Assembly (NCBI RefSeq): GCF_003313395.1
Contig: NZ_QNFZ01000291.1
Coordinates: 1-49,531 of the forward strand
Origin: Nonomuraea lactucae
GTDB taxonomy: Bacteria > Actinomycetota > Actinomycetes > Streptosporangiales > Streptosporangiaceae
DNA: 49,531 nt
Direction of reading: 5' to 3'
The position numbers and the translations under genes are program-made. Shown here piece after piece: positions 125 to 31,209 of this stretch (position 1 is the stretch's first letter; every line of letters begins with the position of its first letter). Below the pieces are notes generated by a model. It was not told the origin of the DNA. It worked only from the letters and a program-made list of their open reading frames with translations, and ran no database searches.

Positions 125-952
125 TCAGGACCGCTGCGCGGTGATCAGGACGTAGCCGGTGTGCGGGTGCTTCCCGAATGCCTCCATCAGGTCGGCCGCC
201 GCGGTGATCTGCTCAGCAGCGGGGGCGTCGAGGGAAGCGGCGAGTTCCCGGAAGGCGGCCGAGGCGTGCCCGTAGCTGGCGCGGACCCGTTCGCCGATGT
301 CCGACAGCTCCAGCAGCCGCCAGCCTGCCTCCGCCAGGCGTGCGCGGTGCTCGTCGGGCGTGTTGATCCCGGCGATCTCATACATGTGCAGCATGCCGTC
401 CAGCAGGGTCCTGCCGTCGCCGGTGAACGGCTCCCGCTGGCACAGGTCGGCGATGACCAGACGGCCGCCGGGGCGGACGACGCGATGGATCTCCGCCAGG
501 GCGGCGGCCTGGTCGGGCATGTGCAGCAGCGACTCGATCGCCCAGGCCCCGTCGAAGGAACCGTCGTCGAAGGGGAGATTCATGGCGTCCGCGAACAGGA
601 AGGAGGCCCGGCCGCGGGCGTCGGAACCATTCGCCAGCTCCGACGCCTGGGTGAGCTGCTGCCGGCTGACGGTGATGCCGGTCACGCGTACACCGTGCGC
701 TCCCGCGATGCGCAGGGCCGGGACGCCGTTGCCGCAGCCCACGTCCAGAAGCTCCTGATCCGGCCGGAGGGCGAGGTGGCCGGCGACGAGGTCGGTGAGG
801 TGGTCGGTGGCCTCGGTCATCGGGACGTCCTGGTCGTCGTCCCAGTAGCCCACGTGGATGTTGCCTCCCAGGGCGGCTGTGGCGCCGACGTCGGTGAACA
901 CGTCGTATGCCTGGCCGACGGAGCCGGGGGTGGTGTCGGACTGCTGCGTCAT
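125..952 (-). CDS. staMA: RebM/StaMA-like SAM-dependent methyltransferase
   Basis: A 275-residue class I methyltransferase. The SAM-binding glycine motif LLDVGCGNGVPAL lies near residue 70, followed by VTGITVSRQQLTQA, FADAMNLPFDDGSFDGAWAI and a RPGGRLVIADL segment. The order and wording resemble RebM, the rebeccamycin sugar 4'-O-methyltransferase, and its relatives. Beside staP the staurosporine cluster has the N-methyltransferase StaMA, so the likely job is methylating the sugar of the glycosylated indolocarbazole. O- versus N-methylation cannot be told from sequence. I chose the ATG at 952 because GAAGAGAAGG precedes it. An upstream in-frame ATG at 997 would overlap the end of the P450 gene by 14 bases. 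Last complete gene of the minus-strand operon. Confidence 0.85.
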   Translation of the reverse strand: MTQQSDTTPGSVGQAYDVFTDVGATAALGGNIHVGYWDDDQDVPMTEATDHLTDLVAGHLALRPDQELLDVGCGNGVPALRIAGAHGVRVTGITVSRQQLTQASELANGSDARGRASFLFADAMNLPFDDGSFDGAWAIESLLHMPDQAAALAEIHRVVRPGGRLVIADLCQREPFTGDGRTLLDGMLHMYEIAGINTPDEHRARLAEAGWRLLELSDIGERVRASYGHASAAFRELAASLDAPAAEQITAAADLMEAFGKHPHTGYVLITAQRS

Positions 953-983
953 GGTTGCCTTCTCTTCGTGCGGGGTCGGTGTG

Positions 984-2249
984 TCACTGCGGGTCACGAG
1001 GGCCGGACATGGTGAGCACCAGACGTGTCGGCCCGTGGAAGACCATGTCGTCGGCGTAGTCGACCTGCTGACCGCCGCGGCCCAGCCCGGGAATGCCGTC
1101 CAGCAGCGTCCGGAGGCCGATCTCGGCCTCGGCGCGGGCCAGCGTCGCGCCGAGGCAGTAGTGGATGCCCAGCCCGAAGCCCAGGTTCCGGTCGGCGGGG
1201 CGACGCACGTCCAGAGTGTCGGGGCGCGAGAAGCGCGCGGGGTCCCGGTTCGCCGAGCCCAGCAGGGCTACCACCCGGCTGCCGCGTGGCACCTCGTGCC
1301 GGCCGAGGCGGGTGTCCTCGTACGCCCATCGCGTCACCGCCTGCACCGGCGGGTCATAGCGCAAGAGCTCCTCGACCGCCCCCGGCGTCAGCTCGGGAGT
1401 GCCGCGCAGCTCGTCGAGGACCTGTGGGTGCGCCCGCAGCGCCAGCACCGCCTTCGCCAGGAAGTTGGTGGTGGTCTCGTGTCCGGCGGTGAGCAGGTGG
1501 ACGCAGGTCCCCACGATCCCGTCCACGCTCAGCGGCGCACCGCCGTCCCGGGCGCGGACGAGGATCGTGAGCAGGTCGCCGCGTTCGTCCCCGTGCCGCT
1601 GGCGCACCTCCCGCCGGAAGTAGCGGGCGAACGCCCGGGAGGCCGCCTCGGCCCGTGCGTAGCCGCCCCTGCCGTTGCGCGATCGGGTGGTGCTGGCCTC
1701 TTGCAGGGCCACCGCGTTGGCGCGGAGCCATCCGTGGTGCTCCTTCGGAATGCCGAGCAGTTCGGAGATGACGAGGATGGGGAACGGCGCCGCGAAGCCC
1801 GCGACGAGGTCGGCCTCCCGGTGCCGTCCGAGCCGCTCCAGGAGCTCGTGCGCGATCTGCCCGATGCGAGGCCGCAGACCGGCGACGATCGAGGGCGAGA
1901 ACTCCTTGCTGAGCAGGGAGCGCAGCTCGGTGTGGCGCGGCGGGTCCAGGAACACCAGCCAGTTCTCGATGATGGCCCGCAGGGCCTGGTACTCGGCGGG
2001 GATCGGGACGGACACCGCGTCGGCGTCGGCGGACGCCACGCGCGCGTCCCGGCCGAAACGCCGGCTCGACAGCACCTGGACGACCTCGTCGTAGGAGAAG
2101 ACGTAGAAGGTGTCCGGCTTGCCCGCGCCCGACGCCCCGCGATGGACCGGCGCGCTCTCCCGGTAGCGCCGGTACACCGGGTACGGGTGGGCGATGTCCT
2201 TCCTGTCCCAGCCCTTGAGGTCGAACCGCGGCAGCGTCGCGGATGGCAT
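984..2249 (-). CDS. staP: Cytochrome P450, StaP-like aryl-aryl coupling of chromopyrrolic acid
   Basis: A 421-residue P450. The oxygen-activation helix has AGHETTTN near residue 253, the ELLRYDPP segment follows, and the haem loop is [15 protein letters not shown] with ligand Cys365. StaP and RebP oxidise chromopyrrolic acid to couple the two indole rings and, with StaC/RebC, give the aglycone. The assignment rests on position directly after a StaD homologue, which matches sta and reb clusters as I recall them. The start ATG at 2249 has GAAGGAGA just upstream. Genes before and after lie 59 and 31 bases away, so this is one operon. No StaC/RebC flavoenzyme is present in the window; it would be needed to fix the aglycone oxidation state. 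Confidence 0.88.
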
Positions 2250-2308: not shown

Positions 2309-5300
2309 CTATCGGCGCGGTGGCCGGAAGTGGTCGGCCCAGAACGCGCTCATCTCCCCCACGCGAGCGGGCACCATGGGGTGCTTGCCGCATGCCGCCG
2401 CGAGGTGGTCGAGGCGCAGCGCGATGCCGCGCCTCGCCACGTCCGGACGGGAAACGGGCGCGGGCTGCTCCGCCAGCTCGAACGACGGCCCGGCGGTCAT
2501 GCCCCGTCGCCCCGACGGCAGGGTCACCAGCAGTTCCGCCAGCGGGCGCATCAGGCCCGTCATCATGTCGATCGCCGCGTTCATCAGGTCGGACCGCCGA
2601 AGGCTCTCGTCCGGGCGCTCACCGAAGTGCTGGACCATGAGCTGCAGCGCCATGAAGTAGGAACGGTTGAACAGCCGCATGACCGACCTGGCGTCAGGAT
2701 CGGTCACCGTCTCCATGGCCGGGTTTCCCTCCCCGAGGGTCGGGTTCCGCACGACGGGATAGGCCGGGCTCCACCGTTCGCCGCCCGGGCGCGTCCCCGC
2801 GGCCGGTGCCCCGCGGAGCAGATCGGAGATCCGGAGGAACGAGGCGTAATGTGACCTCTCGGCGGTTCGCGGGCCGAGCACCCCTCCCTCTCCCTGCTCG
2901 GTGATGACGTCGATCGCGAACAACGCGCTGGAGAGGTCGTCGACCTCCAGCTGGTAGTCGGGGTGGTGCCGGTTGAGCGACTCCCGCAGGAAGAGGTGGT
3001 GCTCCCCGCCTCCCCTGCCCCTGTCCACCAGGAAGAGATCCGGGACGCGTTGCAGGCCCTCCCGGATGTCCGCGTACAGTTCGCTCAGCGAGGCGTAGGG
3101 GTGCCTGTCGTCGAAGGACGCGGGGGCCGCCGTGTCGCCCCGCCGCACCTCGCCGACGAGGTCTTCCGGCCGCTCGATCTGCACGAACCGCTCGACGCTG
3201 CCGGGTCCCAGCCTCTCGAGGGAGAAGTCCAGCGGCACGGGCAGCTCGTGGTTGACGGTGCCGAAGTCGATCCGGGGCACGTGGAACGGCTCACCCACCG
3301 CGGTGATGATGTTGTTGACGAGGAGGAAGTGGATCATCTCCTCGCGGGCGATGTTCAGCAGCATGCTGCGGATGCCCTCGTCGAGGGTCTCTCCGCCGTC
3401 GCCGCAGGCGAGCCGGAGCTGCTCCGGCGTCCACGCGCCCCGCCGCACGTACTCCAGACCGGCGCCGTGGGTGGGCACCGAGTAGGCCGCGTACAGGTAC
3501 TGGAGCATGACGGCCAGCTCGATCGCGGCGGCGTCGCGCAGCACCTTGACCAGCGAGCCGCGGCTGGTGATCCTCCCGCTCCGGCGGCCGGCCGCAGGAA
3601 CCGTCAGGAGGACCTCGTCCGGCGCCTGCTGGGCCCGCAGGAACTTCAGCAGGAGCCGCGCCTTCGGCTCGGACAGATCCCGCGTCGGCGGCATATAGTA
3701 GGTCTTCGCCTTGTTGCGCGGGTCGCACATCTGCCAGATCAGTTTCGCGTACGTCTCCACCTTGCACCGATCCGCCAGGCTGAACACCTCGGCCTTCATG
3801 AAGGAGTACAGGTGCTCGTAGAACGCGAAGACCTCCGTGTACACCAGGTCGAAGGTCGCCTCGTCCTGGCCGATCCCGGCCAGCCGCCAGTCGTCGGGAA
3901 GCACCCGCACCGCCAGGTACCCGGCGCCGGGCCAGTAGCCGAGCGCGTCGTCGTGGTCGTAGCCGAGGGCAGCGGAGCCGGGGAGGTCCACGTCGCACGG
4001 CAGGTCACCGGCGCCGGCTGACAGCAGGACACGGGCCGTACCGGCCGCCGCGCCCCGCATGGTGAACCACCCGCGGCCCGCGAGGTCCGTGTCCAGGACA
4101 CAGGTGCTAGACCACGCGCCGGAACCGTCCCGCCGGCCCGCGCGCAGCCGGACGATGTCGACGTCGGAGCAGCGCGCCTCGGGAGAACGCGCGGACGGGT
4201 CGCGCGGGAGGGCCCTGGGATTGAAGAACTGCCGTACGCCGATCTCGCCGACAGCGCCTGGACGGCCCCGCACATAGGACCGCACGAGCACCTCGACGTC
4301 GTGGTCCGCGTCGTCCGGGTCCCGGGGATGCTCCAGGAAGTGGCACGCGTCGTCGACCTGGACGTTGATCTCCTTTTCGCGCAGGAGCACCACCGGGCCG
4401 CCGGGGCCGGTGCCGACCAGGTGCAGCGCCTCCTCAGCCGCGGCGTTCGCCGGTATCTCGCTGGGAACCGTCACCAGGCCGCCGGCCAGGACGTACTCCT
4501 CCCCGAGGTACGCCCGCCGGGGCACCCTGGCCACCAGCCGGCCGCTGTCCGCCGTGCGCAGTTCGAGATCGCCGACGTCGACCAGCGCGGGGAGACCGGC
4601 CGCGGCCCCGGACCGATGGTCTCGCACCGGACCGGAGGCGGGCACCGCGGTGATCATGTTGAGGGTGACGTGCTCGTCCGTCAGCTCGACGGAGAGGTTG
4701 TGCAGCCCGCCGGGGGCCCGGCCGGATGCGCGGCGGTCCGGGACGAGCAGGCGCCCCGCCGGGTACGTGCGCGGCTCGTGCGGGCGCCAGGGGGCGATCG
4801 TTCCGCGCAGCTGCCAACGGCTCGGCTGGTCGGGCGCGAGCGGAGCGGACATGTGGCTGAGCGCGAACTGCACCACCAGGCCGCCGGCCTCCTCGGAGGC
4901 CGCCGTGGCACGCAGTCGCCGCACGGCCGGAGAGACCGCCGCCTCGTCGAGCCAGGTCAGTTCCTCATGCTCGGGCACGACGAACTGGTAGACCACCGAC
5001 CGGCGCAGCCGGCTCGCCAGCCAGTGATCGCCGACGTCGCTGACGTGCTCGGCGTTGTGCCACCTCGGGGGGTGGAAGCCGCGGACGGCTCCGGTGGCCA
5101 TGTACCCGACGTCGTGGGAGCGTCCGTCGCGCCCGAAGCAGAACTGTCCGACCATGAGCGTCGTGGTCCACTCGGAGGACGGATCGACGTCGAAGACACG
5201 GGCCCGGTTGACCGTGGTGGCGAGGTACTCGTTGTAGTGCCCCCACATGTCGACACCGCGCCCGACCACCGGGTCGGCGGTGTCGATGTCACCCGCGCGG

Positions 5301-5599
5301 CCCTCGACGCTGACGATCCGCGCGTCGATCGAGAAGTGCCCGTTGCCGGAGAAGTCCTCGCCCTTGGCGGCGCTGAAGGGCCCGTCGGGCGTCGGGCGGC
5401 CGGTGCTGTCGAACCTCGGTCCCAGCCGGTCGAGGTAGTCGTGGTACTCGACGGGCGGCCGGTGCGCCGGGAAGGGCTGCCCGTCATCGGTGAGCGCCGT
5501 GCTCGTCGCCAGATCGACGAGACCGTTGCGCGCGCCGGTGGGCAGGTGTGTCGTCGCCACTCCGCGGAAGTGCAGCCGAGGCAGGTCGAAGACGCTCAC
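2309..5599 (-). CDS. staD: Chromopyrrolic acid synthase (StaD/RebD/VioB family)
   Basis: A 1096-residue protein, the size expected for the family. The N-terminus [12 protein letters not shown] and the following [12 protein letters not shown] stretch are typical of RebD/StaD/VioB. The C-terminal third, about residues 680-1020, is the ferritin-like iminophenyl-pyruvate dimer synthase domain, with [17 protein letters not shown] and [14 protein letters not shown]. RebD couples two indole-pyruvate imine units to make chromopyrrolic acid, the first committed intermediate. The GTG start at 5599 overlaps the TGA of staO (GTGA), which suggests translational coupling of the oxidase with the dimerising enzyme. 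Antisense open frames across this gene are GC-rich shadows. Confidence 0.93.
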
Positions 5600-7110
5600 A
5601 CCGACCCGTCCGAGGGGCTCGGCCTGGAGGCGGCGAACACGCGGTTCGCCCGCGGCTCGTACCACTCGATCTCGTGCGCGGCGTCGATCGCCGACTCGAT
5701 CGCGCCCTCGATCCAAGCGGGCTTCGACGAGCAGTGCTCGCCGGCGAAGAAGAGCCCTTTCTGCGGACGGGTCGCCTCCCGCCGCTCCGCCTCGCGGAGA
5801 GCGGCTTCCTGAACCCAGCGGACCGTGGCCGCCCCCCAGGACCATCGGTGCGAGCCCCAGGCCCGTCCTGCCACGCCGAGGAGCATGCCCGGTCGGCGCA
5901 GCTCGGGGTGCATCACGCTCAGTTCCCTGGTGACGACCGCGGTCCTCTCCGCCTCGCTCAGCCGGCTGAGCGCGTCGGCGTCCGGCCCGATGGCGTAGCT
6001 CGCGAGCAGCACCGCGCCGAGCGCCGGATCGCCGTCGGCGGGCGGGTAGTAGGTCTGCCGCACGAGCCCGCCGGTGAAGGAGGCACCCCCGCTGATCCCG
6101 TCCTTCTCCCAGAAGGGCTCGCGGCAGTGGAAGGCTATCTTCGTCGCCGGCCAGTATTTCGTCTGATGGACGATGTCCAGCTTGTCCTGGTCGAAGCCGG
6201 TCAGCCGCATCCTCCTGAGCACCGTGAACGGAACGGTGCACACCACGTAGTCGCAGGTCTTGGTGAGGGTTCTGAAGCCCTGGCGGATCCGCAGGATCAC
6301 CGCCTCGTCCCGGACGTCGATGCCCACCACCTCCTGGCCGGTCGAGATCTCTCCCCGGATCCGCGAGGCGAGCCGCCTGGGGAGCTCGTCCATCCCGTTG
6401 CGCAGCCGCACAATGGTGGAGCTGGTCTCGTCCAGCACGTCGTCGAGAAAACGCTCAAGGCGTGGCGGGCAGAACGACCGCACCTGGGGATGGTCGGCGA
6501 AGAAGGCGTGCAGGTCGATCCTGTTCCCCGCGCTGCCGCGCCGGTATGGCGTCAGGTCGATGTGATCGACGAGGTTCAGCAGTTCCACGCCTATCTCGTC
6601 GTGCAGCGCGTCGTAGAACTTACGGGGGGCGATGGCCCTGATGCTGGCGTCCAGCCAGGCGCCGAACAGCAGGGTGTTCTCCCGGTAGTGCCGGTTCGGC
6701 AATCCGGCGGCGAAGTCGTTGACAAGGGTTTCACGCGCGTCGCGCACCCGAAGGTATCCGGAGGAACTGGGCAGGTAGGCGGCGTCGTCGGAGAACAGCG
6801 TCCGGAACTCGCGGACCTGGTTCTGCAGACCGAGTTCGGCGATGTAGTGCATGGTCAGCCGGTGCCCGGCGGGGATCCGCATCGCGCCCAGCTCGGCGAA
6901 CGGCCCGGCCCGGCCGCCGCCGGGAAAGCGATGGGTGTGAATGCGTCCGCCGATCTCGCGGCTTCCTTCGATGATTTGGACGTGATGTCCGAGGCGCTCC
7001 AGTTCGTATGCCGCCACCAAGCCGGCGATGCCGGCGCCGATGACGGTGACCTTCTTCGGTCCACCGATGGCGCCGTCCGGCCCGTCAATCTCCTGCAAAG
7101 GTGCCGTCAC
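5596..7110 (-). CDS. staO: FAD-dependent L-tryptophan oxidase (StaO/RebO family)
   Basis: A 504-residue flavin amine oxidase. The N-terminal FAD-binding motif is VIGAGIAGLVAAYELE (Gly25, Gly27, Gly30), then REIGGRIHTHRFPGGG. The C-terminal FAD motif is GLFFAGEHCSSKPAWIEGAIESA in two adjoining parts. RebO and StaO oxidise L-tryptophan (chlorinated in the rebeccamycin route) to the imine used by RebD/StaD. The GTG start at 7110 has GGAGGAAATCT just before it. The open frame extends far upstream, but that part overlaps the divergent staG gene and is not coding. First gene of the minus-strand operon, probably transcribed from the 7111-7464 divergent promoter region. No halogenase is nearby, so the substrate is probably plain tryptophan. 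Confidence 0.92.
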   Translation of the reverse strand: MTAPLQEIDGPDGAIGGPKKVTVIGAGIAGLVAAYELERLGHHVQIIEGSREIGGRIHTHRFPGGGRAGPFAELGAMRIPAGHRLTMHYIAELGLQNQVREFRTLFSDDAAYLPSSSGYLRVRDARETLVNDFAAGLPNRHYRENTLLFGAWLDASIRAIAPRKFYDALHDEIGVELLNLVDHIDLTPYRRGSAGNRIDLHAFFADHPQVRSFCPPRLERFLDDVLDETSSTIVRLRNGMDELPRRLASRIRGEISTGQEVVGIDVRDEAVILRIRQGFRTLTKTCDYVVCTVPFTVLRRMRLTGFDQDKLDIVHQTKYWPATKIAFHCREPFWEKDGISGGASFTGGLVRQTYYPPADGDPALGAVLLASYAIGPDADALSRLSEAERTAVVTRELSVMHPELRRPGMLLGVAGRAWGSHRWSWGAATVRWVQEAALREAERREATRPQKGLFFAGEHCSSKPAWIEGAIESAIDAAHEIEWYEPRANRVFAASRPSPSDGSV

Positions 7111-28779: not shown

Positions 28780-28934
28780 GCCAGGTTCCCAGGCCTCTCG
28801 GATGATCGGTGAGAGTGGCCATCACCCTGTGTCAGGATGAGTGACTTTCCCTGAGAAAACGTCCATTCCGCGGCAAGGACTTGGCAAAACGGGGGCGAGG
28901 AAAGGGGAGTACCCGCGCCTTTCCACTCTCACCG

Positions 28935-28940
28935 TATAGC
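28935..28940 (+). promoter_or_regulatory. Candidate -10 box of helR
   Basis: TATAGC lies 7 bases upstream of the rifamycin-associated-element-like inverted repeat and 115 bases before the helR start. No convincing -35 was seen. Confidence 0.35.
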
Positions 28941-28947
28941 GCACCGG

Positions 28948-28966
28948 GGGGCTTGCGGCAAGACCC
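28948..28966 (+). promoter_or_regulatory. Rifamycin-associated-element-like inverted repeat
   Basis: The 19 bases GGGGCTTGCGGCAAGACCC form two 9-base arms around one G, matching at 8 of 9 positions. From memory, this closely matches the rifamycin-associated element (RAE) found before rifamycin-inducible genes of actinomycetes, including helR. It sits just after a candidate -10 box and 89 bases before the helicase start, so it should confer rifamycin-inducible expression. Confidence 0.8.
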
Positions 28967-29055
28967 GGGTCGTGCCGCACAATCGTCGGCCGAGGCCGGC
29001 CACGGAGTCCACGCCAGGCGGCGTCGTCGAGCACTTTCAGATCGGAGCTGATGAC

Positions 29056-31209
29056 GTGAACCCCCTCACCACCAGTGCGTTCGACCTTCCCGATCACCTC
29101 TCGCCCAAGGCCGGCCCGACGCTGATCGCCGCCGATGAGCAGCACTTCGCGGCCATCGAGGAGAGCCTCCAGCAGTCGATCGCCGACCTGTCCGACCGCC
29201 TCGACGCCGAACGCAGGGCGCCCGGCGGCGCAGGCCGGCAGGCGATGGACCGGGACATGGAGATCCACCGGCTGACCGCTCGCCTGCGCGCCCTGCGTCG
29301 CTTCGGCTTGGACCTGTGCCTCGGGCGCATGGTCAGCGCGGACGACCCCGACCCCGTGTACGTCGGACGACTTGGCCTTGTCGACAGCGCGGGCCGTCGG
29401 CTGCTGATCGACTGGCGCTCCCCCGCGGCTGAGCCGTTCTTCGGAGCGACCCACGCCAACCCGATGGGTCTGGCGAGCCGCCGCAGGTATCGCTGGACCC
29501 GCGGCCGGATCAGCGACTACTGGGACGAGGTCTTCACAGTGGACGGGTTCGACGGGCACGCCGCGCTCGACGACCAGTCCGCCTTCATCGCCGGCCTGGG
29601 CGGCAACCGGTCGTCCCGGATGCGAGACGTGCTCGGCACCATCCAGGCCGACCAGGACGCCGTCATCCGCGCGGGATCCCGCGGCGCTCTGGTCGTCGAC
29701 GGCGGCCCGGGTACGGGGAAGACCGTCGTCGCTCTGCACCGCTCCGCCTACCTCCTCTACTCCGACCCCCGCCTCGGTCACCGCCGGGGCGGCGTGCTGT
29801 TCGTCGGCCCGCACCAGCCCTACCTGGCCTACGTCGCCGACGTCCTCCCCAGCCTCGGAGAGGAGGGCGTGCAGATCTGCACCCTGCGGGACCTCGTCGC
29901 CGAGGGAGCCGCGGCGGCGATCGAGCCCGACCCGGACGTGGCCCGGCTGAAGGCGTCCGCGAACCTGGTGAAGGCGATCGAGCCGGCCGTCAGGTTCTAC
30001 GAGAACCCGCCCACCCAGGGGATGACGGTCACGACCCACTGGTCCGACATCTGGCTGAGCGCCGACGACTGGGCCGAGGCGTTCGAAGCACCGGAACCCG
30101 GCACTCCGCACAACGAGGCGCGCGACCAGATCTGGGAGGAACTGCTCACGATCGTGGCGGACAAGCACGACGACGACGAGGACGTCTCGGCCGACATGCT
30201 CCGCGGATCGCTGCTGCGGAACGGGGAGCTGCTCACGACCTTCAACCGTGCGTGGCCGCTGCTCGAAGCGGCCGACCTCGTCGCAGACCTGTGGTCGGTG
30301 CCCGCCTACCTGCGGATGTGCGCGCCCTGGCTCGACTCCGACGACGTCCGGAAGCTGCAGCGCGGGGACGCCCAGGCCTGGACGGTGTCCGACCTGCCGC
30401 TCCTTGACGCGGCACGGCAGCGGCTCGGCGACCCGGAGGCGTCACGACGAAAGCGCCGGCACGACGCCTCCGTCGCCGCCCAACGCGAACGCATGGCGCA
30501 GGTCGTCGACAACCTGCTCGAGGCCGATGACGACGGTGAAGGTCTGGTGACGATGCTGCGCGGACAGGACATGCGGAACACCCTGGTCGACGAGACTGCA
30601 CTGCCCGGCACCGACCCGGACCGGCTCGCCGGCCCGTTCGCGCACATCGTCGTGGACGAGGCTCAGGAACTCACCGACGCGGAGTGGCAGATGCTGCTGC
30701 TCCGCTGCCCGTCCCGGAGCTTCACCATCGTCGGGGACCGTGCCCAGGCCAGGCACGGGTTCGCCGAGTCGTGGCGGGAACGGCTCGACCGGATCGGCCT
30801 CGACGAGATCAACCTGACCTCCCTGAGCATCAACTACCGGACACCGGAGGAGGTCATGGCGGAAGCCGAGCCGGTCATCCGGGCCGTGCTCCCGGACGCC
30901 AACGTGCCGACCTCCATCCGCCGCAGCGGCGTCCCCGTCGTCCACGGATCCGCTTCGGACCTGAGCTCGATCCTCGACACCTGGCACGCCGCGCACGCCG
31001 AAGGCATCGCCTGCGTCATCGGCGATCCCACATTCCAGGAGACGTCCCGCGTCCGGTCGCTGACCCCGGAGCTCGCGAAGGGGCTCGAGTTCGACCTGGT
31101 CGTCCTCATCGACCCAGAGGCGTTCGGCCGGGGCATCGAAGGAGCGGTCGACCGCTATGTCGCGATGACCCGAGCGACCCGGCAACTCGTCATCCTCACG
31201 AGCCCCTGA
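29056..31209 (+). CDS. helR: HelD-family helicase-like protein, probable HelR (rifamycin protection)
   Basis: A 717-residue superfamily 1 helicase-like protein. The N-terminal region, with DEQHFAAIEESLQQSIADL, can form the coiled coil typical of HelD proteins. Walker A is GGPGTGKTVVALHR near residues 216-229, motif II is VVDEAQELTDAEWQMLLLRC, and TIVGDRAQA and LELAKGLEF-like ELAKGLEFDLVVLID follow. HelD recycles stalled RNA polymerase. HelR relatives displace rifamycins from the polymerase. The RAE-like repeat upstream favours HelR over a DNA-repair role. The GTG at 29056 has GGAG eight bases upstream; the frame extends further up, but that would run through the regulatory element. Confidence 0.88.
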   Translation: MNPLTTSAFDLPDHLSPKAGPTLIAADEQHFAAIEESLQQSIADLSDRLDAERRAPGGAGRQAMDRDMEIHRLTARLRALRRFGLDLCLGRMVSADDPDPVYVGRLGLVDSAGRRLLIDWRSPAAEPFFGATHANPMGLASRRRYRWTRGRISDYWDEVFTVDGFDGHAALDDQSAFIAGLGGNRSSRMRDVLGTIQADQDAVIRAGSRGALVVDGGPGTGKTVVALHRSAYLLYSDPRLGHRRGGVLFVGPHQPYLAYVADVLPSLGEEGVQICTLRDLVAEGAAAAIEPDPDVARLKASANLVKAIEPAVRFYENPPTQGMTVTTHWSDIWLSADDWAEAFEAPEPGTPHNEARDQIWEELLTIVADKHDDDEDVSADMLRGSLLRNGELLTTFNRAWPLLEAADLVADLWSVPAYLRMCAPWLDSDDVRKLQRGDAQAWTVSDLPLLDAARQRLGDPEASRRKRRHDASVAAQRERMAQVVDNLLEADDDGEGLVTMLRGQDMRNTLVDETALPGTDPDRLAGPFAHIVVDEAQELTDAEWQMLLLRCPSRSFTIVGDRAQARHGFAESWRERLDRIGLDEINLTSLSINYRTPEEVMAEAEPVIRAVLPDANVPTSIRRSGVPVVHGSASDLSSILDTWHAAHAEGIACVIGDPTFQETSRVRSLTPELAKGLEFDLVVLIDPEAFGRGIEGAVDRYVAMTRATRQLVILTSP

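Follow-up and report, generated by a model that had tools for sequence, protein, structure and literature searches.

The reading we favour, at a probability of roughly 0.7, is that the helR gene of the soil bacterium Nonomuraea lactucae belongs to a regulon of the rifamycin-associated element (RAE), that this element lies at the heart of two divergent promoters, and that a palindrome-binding protein serves as the drug sensor. What the sequence shows of this is the family of the gene, the RAE upstream of it and a conserved geometry around the element. The features on which the argument turns lie in a stretch of 49,531 nucleotides (contig NZ_QNFZ01000291.1, positions 1 to 49,531; hereafter the window):

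29056..31209, plus strand: helR ORF, encoding a class II HelD-type ATPase of 717 amino acids (NF041254, 1308 bits, cut-off 750)
28948..28966, no strand assigned: RAE, a 19-bp imperfect palindrome GGGGCTTGCGGCAAGACCC, exact match, with an identical 19-mer before Rox on C544
28935-28940, upstream of the RAE: TATAGC box, conserved, yet not readable as a sense -10
28953..28958, plus strand: sense -35-like TTGCGG within the RAE, 19 bp from the sense -10, as read from sequence
28978..28983, plus strand: sense -10 CACAAT of the likely helR promoter (NANNNT at 19 bp in 152/154 sites)
28956..28961, minus strand: antisense -35-like TTGCCG within the RAE, mirroring the sense -35
28931..28936, minus strand: predicted antisense -10 TACGGT (TANNNT at 19 bp in 151/154 sites)
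28899..28924, minus strand: putative hairpin GGAAAGG/CCTTTCC from the predicted antisense +1, a 7-bp stem read from sequence

The initial annotation placed a HelD-type protein downstream of the repeat and proposed that it was probably HelR; the ORF at 29056-31209 and its profile scores bear out both. The NCBIfam model motor_HelR (NF041254) scores 1308 bits against a cut-off of 750, whereas the mycobacterial HelD model HelD_MYCSM (NF041465; 377 bits, cut-off 1051) and the B. subtilis HelD model (93 bits, cut-off 419) remain below theirs, as does the HelR_2 model (421 bits, cut-off 1100). Judged by these scores, the protein does not cluster with housekeeping HelD, the outcome that had been named in advance as speaking against a HelR. 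The motifs of HelD proteins are present, with DWR at residue 119 and the Walker A sequence GGPGTGKT at residue 216, and M. smegmatis HelD is the nearest solved structure by sequence. The reading frame ends at the stop at 31209 and is open from an in-frame GTG at 28972, an alternative start; GTG 29056 appears the more likely one because a GGAG ends 8 nt upstream of it and a relative (L028) shows an identical start context. Other HelD-like genes of the genome, on C764 and C748, score less than the HelR and HelD models require, the C764 paralogue missing the cut-off of every HelD or HelR model matched, and weaker matches occur on C676 and C750.

Counted in an alignment to M. smegmatis HelD, the loop tip of the window protein carries Asp at Asp485 and Val at Glu484. 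Among 80 HelR relatives, the best 80 of 549, position 485 is acidic in 79 (D 73, E 6, A 1) and position 484 hydrophobic in 79 (V 51, I 27, T 1, L 1). This count replaces an earlier one whose search pattern itself demanded Asp and which we rejected as evidence for conservation. In M. abscessus, a double alanine mutant of both acidic tip residues loses resistance (PMC10719064). The window HelR resembles S. venezuelae SVEN_6029 and M. abscessus MAB_3189c in being of the class II HelD type, in having an acidic residue at one of the two loop-tip positions and in the RAE upstream, the likeness to the S. venezuelae protein being drawn through the family model and its description; it differs in having Val where the mycobacterial protein has the tip Glu. 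A review attributes an ATPase mechanism that releases rifamycin from RNA polymerase to proteins of three species, S. venezuelae, M. abscessus and M. smegmatis. By family, the window protein would bind RNA polymerase and press the loop that enters the primary channel towards the drug-binding pocket, so that rifamycin is released and the enzyme rescued. The sequence thus far described supports the identification of the gene as a HelR, whose predicted role is to release RNA polymerase from rifamycins.

The 19-base inverted repeat had been interpreted as an RAE ahead of a HelD-type gene, and this interpretation stands. The GGGGCTTGCGGCAAGACCC pattern, searched on both strands with at most three mismatches, occurs at a single place in the whole window (mean in shuffles 0.01) and differs from its own reverse complement at 3 positions. 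We take these letters to be those of the RAE, in keeping with their position before homologues of rifamycin-resistance genes. Published descriptions, in the portions accessible, give a 19-bp palindrome and not its letters.

Across the whole genome, the 15-base core GGGGCTTGCGGCAAG, with at most two mismatches allowed, has two exact sites, in the window and on C544, and one one-mismatch site, on C831; of 14 two-mismatch rows, 2 merely repeat the exact sites on the opposite strand. On C544, the full 19-mer is identical to the window RAE and precedes the rifampin monooxygenase Rox (NF033145, 932 bits, cut-off 800). On C831, a one-mismatch copy of the first 15 bases of the RAE precedes an Rgt-like glycosyltransferase ORF, which scores 213 bits against a cut-off of 800 and apparently falls into two reading frames in the draft assembly. 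A single rpoB was found in the genome; its rifamycin region is ordinary, with a sequence that we take to be the drug-sensitive form. The best explanation is that helR shares one rifamycin regulon with Rox and the Rgt-like gene through the same or a similar element. Rox likewise lies within the RAE regulon of S. venezuelae (PMC10719064). The presence of HelR, Rox and an Rgt-like protein behind like elements, together with an ordinary rpoB, suggests a strain that meets rifamycins and has no target-mutation immunity, and rifampicin-inducible resistance is a fair prediction for it from sequence. That we are dealing instead with a housekeeping HelD behind a chance palindrome is highly improbable: HelD and HelR are homologous, with motifs in common, and mycobacterial-type HelD may carry an RAE (5 sites), but the HelR model lies far over its cut-off here with the HelD models under theirs, and an element expected 0.01 times by chance also stands before Rox in the same genome.

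The association between the element and resistance genes extends across the class. The pattern GGGNCTTGCSGCAAGNCCC was present in 68 of 197 genomes (backward-read control, 1), and HelR exceeded its cut-off in 66 of the 197. In a set of 394 genomes that contains these 197, the RAE was found in 157 (51 of 137 genera), the backward control giving 3. Perfect sites amounted to 161 records, 84 training and 77 validation, with at least one double (L027 = L063); the validation records came from newly added genomes, and 6 further listed sites as well as unlisted ones were left out. All but 4 records precede homologues of HelR, HelD, Rox, Rph, Arr or an Rgt-like protein, and those 4, with no recognised downstream gene, were dropped (2/84 training, 2/77 validation). 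Behind the 157 oriented elements stand HelR in 75, Rox in 36, Rph in 16, Arr in 13, Rgt-like proteins in 12 (one of these records being the double) and mycobacterial-type HelD in 5, orientation being set by downstream-gene homology alone. Of the reference genes used for these labels, Rox, Rph, Arr and mycobacterial-type HelD score above the respective NCBIfam cut-offs; Rgt reaches 520 of 800 bits, hence the label ‘Rgt-like’. Three of the 82 oriented training records (L027, L037, L052) had no full flank, leaving 79, so that geometry was scored on 154 sites, 79 training and 75 validation, distinct over 99 bp, and the hairpin on 153; these counts are not independent, for the sites share descent.

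Some records in this collection merit separate mention. One of the five mycobacterial-type HelD genes behind an RAE module lies at 2619-4808 (+) of L080 (NF041465, 1412 bits, cut-off 1051). In L067, a complete module (RAE 1501-1519) precedes a DrrA-type ABC transporter ATPase at 382-1305 (-) (338 bits, cut-off 312), followed by a permease-like ORF, by sequence a possible efflux member of the rifamycin regulon. In L141, the module near 2120 precedes an ORF that begins Rgt-like (MRVLLST) and then diverges, perhaps a remnant.

By its sequence, the RAE appears to hold the -35 elements of two divergent promoters, which overlap within it. The geometry was learned on the 79 training sites, and expected frequencies were written down before new genomes were fetched. 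In 78 of the 79, an antisense TANNNT lies at a spacer of 19 from an antisense TTGCSG, and equally in 78 of 79 a sense NANNNT, mostly CANAAT or CANACT, lies at a spacer of 19 from the sense TTGCSG. The 75 new sites had the antisense hexamer at 19 bp in 73 and the sense hexamer in 74, giving 151/154 and 152/154 (the latter of CANAAT type) over all sites; the rule is broken at 4/154, namely in L064 for both hexamers, in L126 and L150 for the antisense and in L149 for the sense one. At other spacers between 10 and 30 bp, the antisense TANNNT is seen in 0/79 training and at most 1/75 validation sites, while the looser sense NANNNT also occurs at spacers of 21 and 22 (12 and 24 of 79; 11 and 13 of 75). 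A standard sigma-70 promoter and terminator scan of 28780-29100, which expects TTGACA and spacers of 16-18 bp, found none. The predicted sense start in the window, from CACAAT, falls at about 28988-28990. We also considered two apparent elaborations and rejected both: full mirror symmetry of the module is not significant past the palindrome and the -10 positions (P 0.06), and a seemingly conserved 5' hairpin on the sense strand, GGCCGAGGCC downstream of the -10, has no folding advantage over shuffled sequence (mean z -0.19).

The ‘-10-like box’ noted before the repeat is present as TATAGC and conserved, but its reading as a sense -10 fails. Position 6 of the box on the sense strand is C in 148, G in 5 and A in 1 of the 154 sites and T in none, and among the validation sites a sense TANNNT is found there in 0/75. 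On the antisense strand, the hexamer is variable at positions 3 and 4 and hardly so at positions 1, 2 and 6 (79 training sites), and the Arr sites carry antisense TANNNT in 13/13 and exact TATAGC in 0/13. The position-6 base, the fixity of the spacer and the Arr sites thus favour the box as an antisense rather than a sense -10. These observations bear on a plainer alternative, in which a factor binds the RAE as an operator and the upstream block either forms part of the binding site of that factor or is a second sense promoter, P1. Papers have proposed an unknown factor, and two sense promoters in M. smegmatis (PMC10719064 for the promoters); moreover, the upstream block ACTCTCAACNTATAGCGCA shows more conservation than a -10 by itself would require. 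We nevertheless find this account doubtful, given that a sense reading of TATAGC would lack the T of position 6 in 154/154 sites, that the antisense hexamer varies at positions 3 and 4 and hardly at 1, 2 and 6, and that 13/13 Arr sites keep TANNNT without TATAGC. A search at -45 to -25 for a conserved sense P1 found no sense TANNNT in 153 sites, and sense ANNNT was scattered there, with at most 13/154 at any one place, a pattern with which a weak, unconserved P1 is possibly compatible.

A third test of the divergent geometry used 80 HelR loci chosen independently of the RAE as the best 80 of 549 by protein similarity, some of which may share species with genomes of the earlier sets. Within 700 bp, 61 of the 80 have an RAE with at most one mismatch, and both -10s are present in 60 of these 61; a reversed control pattern gave 0. 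In the remaining 19, an rgt homologue lies upstream in 18 and the RAE module lies upstream of rgt in 17, with both -10s in 17/17. An rgt-helR gene pair is therefore recurrent (among L198-L274), the helR gene having no near RAE. Of the other two loci, L209 has a partial rgt, its 2 kb of sequence containing no RAE, and the upstream sequence of L240 is 284 bp long.

The antisense side frequently carries a further element. Over the 32 nt from the predicted antisense +1, which lies 24 bp upstream of the RAE, the mean folding z is -2.0, with z < -1.5 in 84/153 sites; five other stretches given the same fold test reach this in 9 to 16 of 153. The excess is seen in training (47/78 against 9/78 in the control) and in validation (40/75 against 5/75), where the share narrowly exceeds the ‘majority’ stated beforehand. 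A stem of at least 6 pairs anchored at the antisense +1 occurs in 100/153 sites, against 40/153 shuffled sequences and 37/153 upstream controls, and the 12 nt past the stem in those 100 sites hold on average 4.3 T and 0.8 A (control 2.7 T). The two arms covary: scored with the best of 20 end points, 7 of 7 arm positions pair in 74/153, a number that falls to 37.9 (sd 4.9) if each arm is matched with one from another site, and A-T, G-C and C-G exchanges are present. Before Arr genes the hairpin is rare (stem in 2/13). The window itself is unexceptional, its 45-nt antisense fold having z -0.62 and best pairs that differ from the GGAAAGG/CCTTTCC stem. We considered whether the hairpin might be the terminator of the upstream gene and rejected this, stems of at least 6 pairs occurring with both codirectional (57/89) and divergent (43/64) upstream ORFs, an orientation taken crudely from the longest ORF. 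At many sites the hairpin would probably end the predicted antisense RNA.

How such a module might sense rifamycin can be framed against two published systems. In M. smegmatis, the RAE overlaps the -35 of the proximal sense promoter P2, and transcription from a second sense promoter, P1, begins some 20 bp ahead of the element on its upstream side; the accessible part of PMC10719064, which describes both, makes no mention of an antisense promoter. The overlap of RAE and -35 fits our sense reading of the window element, and the published element is otherwise like it, a 19-bp palindrome before inactivation and protection genes that overlaps the proximal sense -35. However, whereas the published RAE is accompanied by two sense promoters, the conserved partner at our sites is a predicted antisense promoter, often with an antisense hairpin. 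The second system is the rifampicin alarm of B. subtilis helD and pps, which resembles ours in setting a sense promoter and a seemingly stronger antisense one before a HelD-type gene. There, the promoters converge without overlapping; here the -10s diverge and the -35s overlap around the palindrome, so that the convergent arrangement is absent. By analogy, the RAE module may be a divergent cousin of that alarm, or a parallel to it that is differently built.

In the mechanism that we propose, the palindrome would supply overlapping -35 elements on both strands. A sense promoter with a CANAAT -10, of the weaker kind, would drive helR, and the promoter with the stronger TANNNT -10 would fire upstream, often into an immediate hairpin. 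In M. smegmatis, higher transcript levels are associated with TANNNT than with VANNNT promoters (PMC6448022), from which it follows that the antisense promoter should, by sequence, be the stronger of the two. We infer from these sequences that both promoters are active and mutually exclusive, that a regulator acts on them, and that induction and resistance result. The sensor of rifamycin would most likely be a palindrome-binding protein that masks the -35s of both promoters, since the two should not be occupied together and a polymerase stalled by the drug on the antisense side should obstruct the sense promoter; by this argument we doubt that simple promoter competition alone would yield induction. 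More tentatively, and at odds that we place somewhat below even, the RAE could be the shared core of exclusive back-to-back promoters, with the antisense promoter and its hairpin as a working part of the rifamycin sensor of Actinomycetes.

The polymerase might itself be the sensor, a strong antisense promoter keeping the sense promoter empty until rifamycin disturbs the traffic, with no regulator involved. The conservation of both an antisense TANNNT and a CANAAT-type sense -10 would suit this possibility, as would the B. subtilis precedent, in which helD and pps sense rifampicin through a dominant antisense promoter (PMC12802891). Conversely, those promoters converge, and in the same paper shortening the gap between them to the point of interference abolishes induction; in an overlapping back-to-back layout, a stalled antisense polymerase would block the sense promoter and an extra clearing step would be needed; and the GGG/CCC arms of the palindrome would go unexplained. 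Hence, we regard a polymerase-only sensor as unlikely and a palindrome-binding regulator as the likelier of the two.

The helR gene and the RAE are in themselves of already known kinds. An antisense promoter or hairpin at the RAE goes unmentioned in the accessible parts of PMC10719064, PMC8655204, PMC12802891, PMC10194278, PMC7283461, PMC11077062 and PMC6448022, and we recognised no published antisense starts at the RAE in the literature searched; an earlier description of the promoter and hairpin is possible. Rifamycin sensing through the RAE in actinobacteria was still called unresolved in 2026 (PMC12802891). A conserved antisense -10 at a fixed 19-bp geometry, common to several resistance families, offers a concrete and testable handle on this sensing, and a two-way promoter layout could help account for how these bacteria perceive rifamycins.

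Two further observations concern the surroundings of helR genes. Relatives of HelR occur in 83 plasmid records (33 from Streptomyces), and in 38 of them the match spans at least 80% of the query; identity is 75-87% among the ten matches listed, one of which, H2, is probably no plasmid, given its length of 11.8 Mb. In the window, some 23 kb from helR, a VioB-like ORF with a ferritin-like domain (2309-6241, minus strand; 787 bits against the VioB cut-off of 1250) lies close to P450-like and sugar-nucleotide ORFs. The sequence of this neighbourhood is perhaps that of a bisindole cluster, and it is plausible that the strain is an indolocarbazole producer, as had been supposed at the outset.
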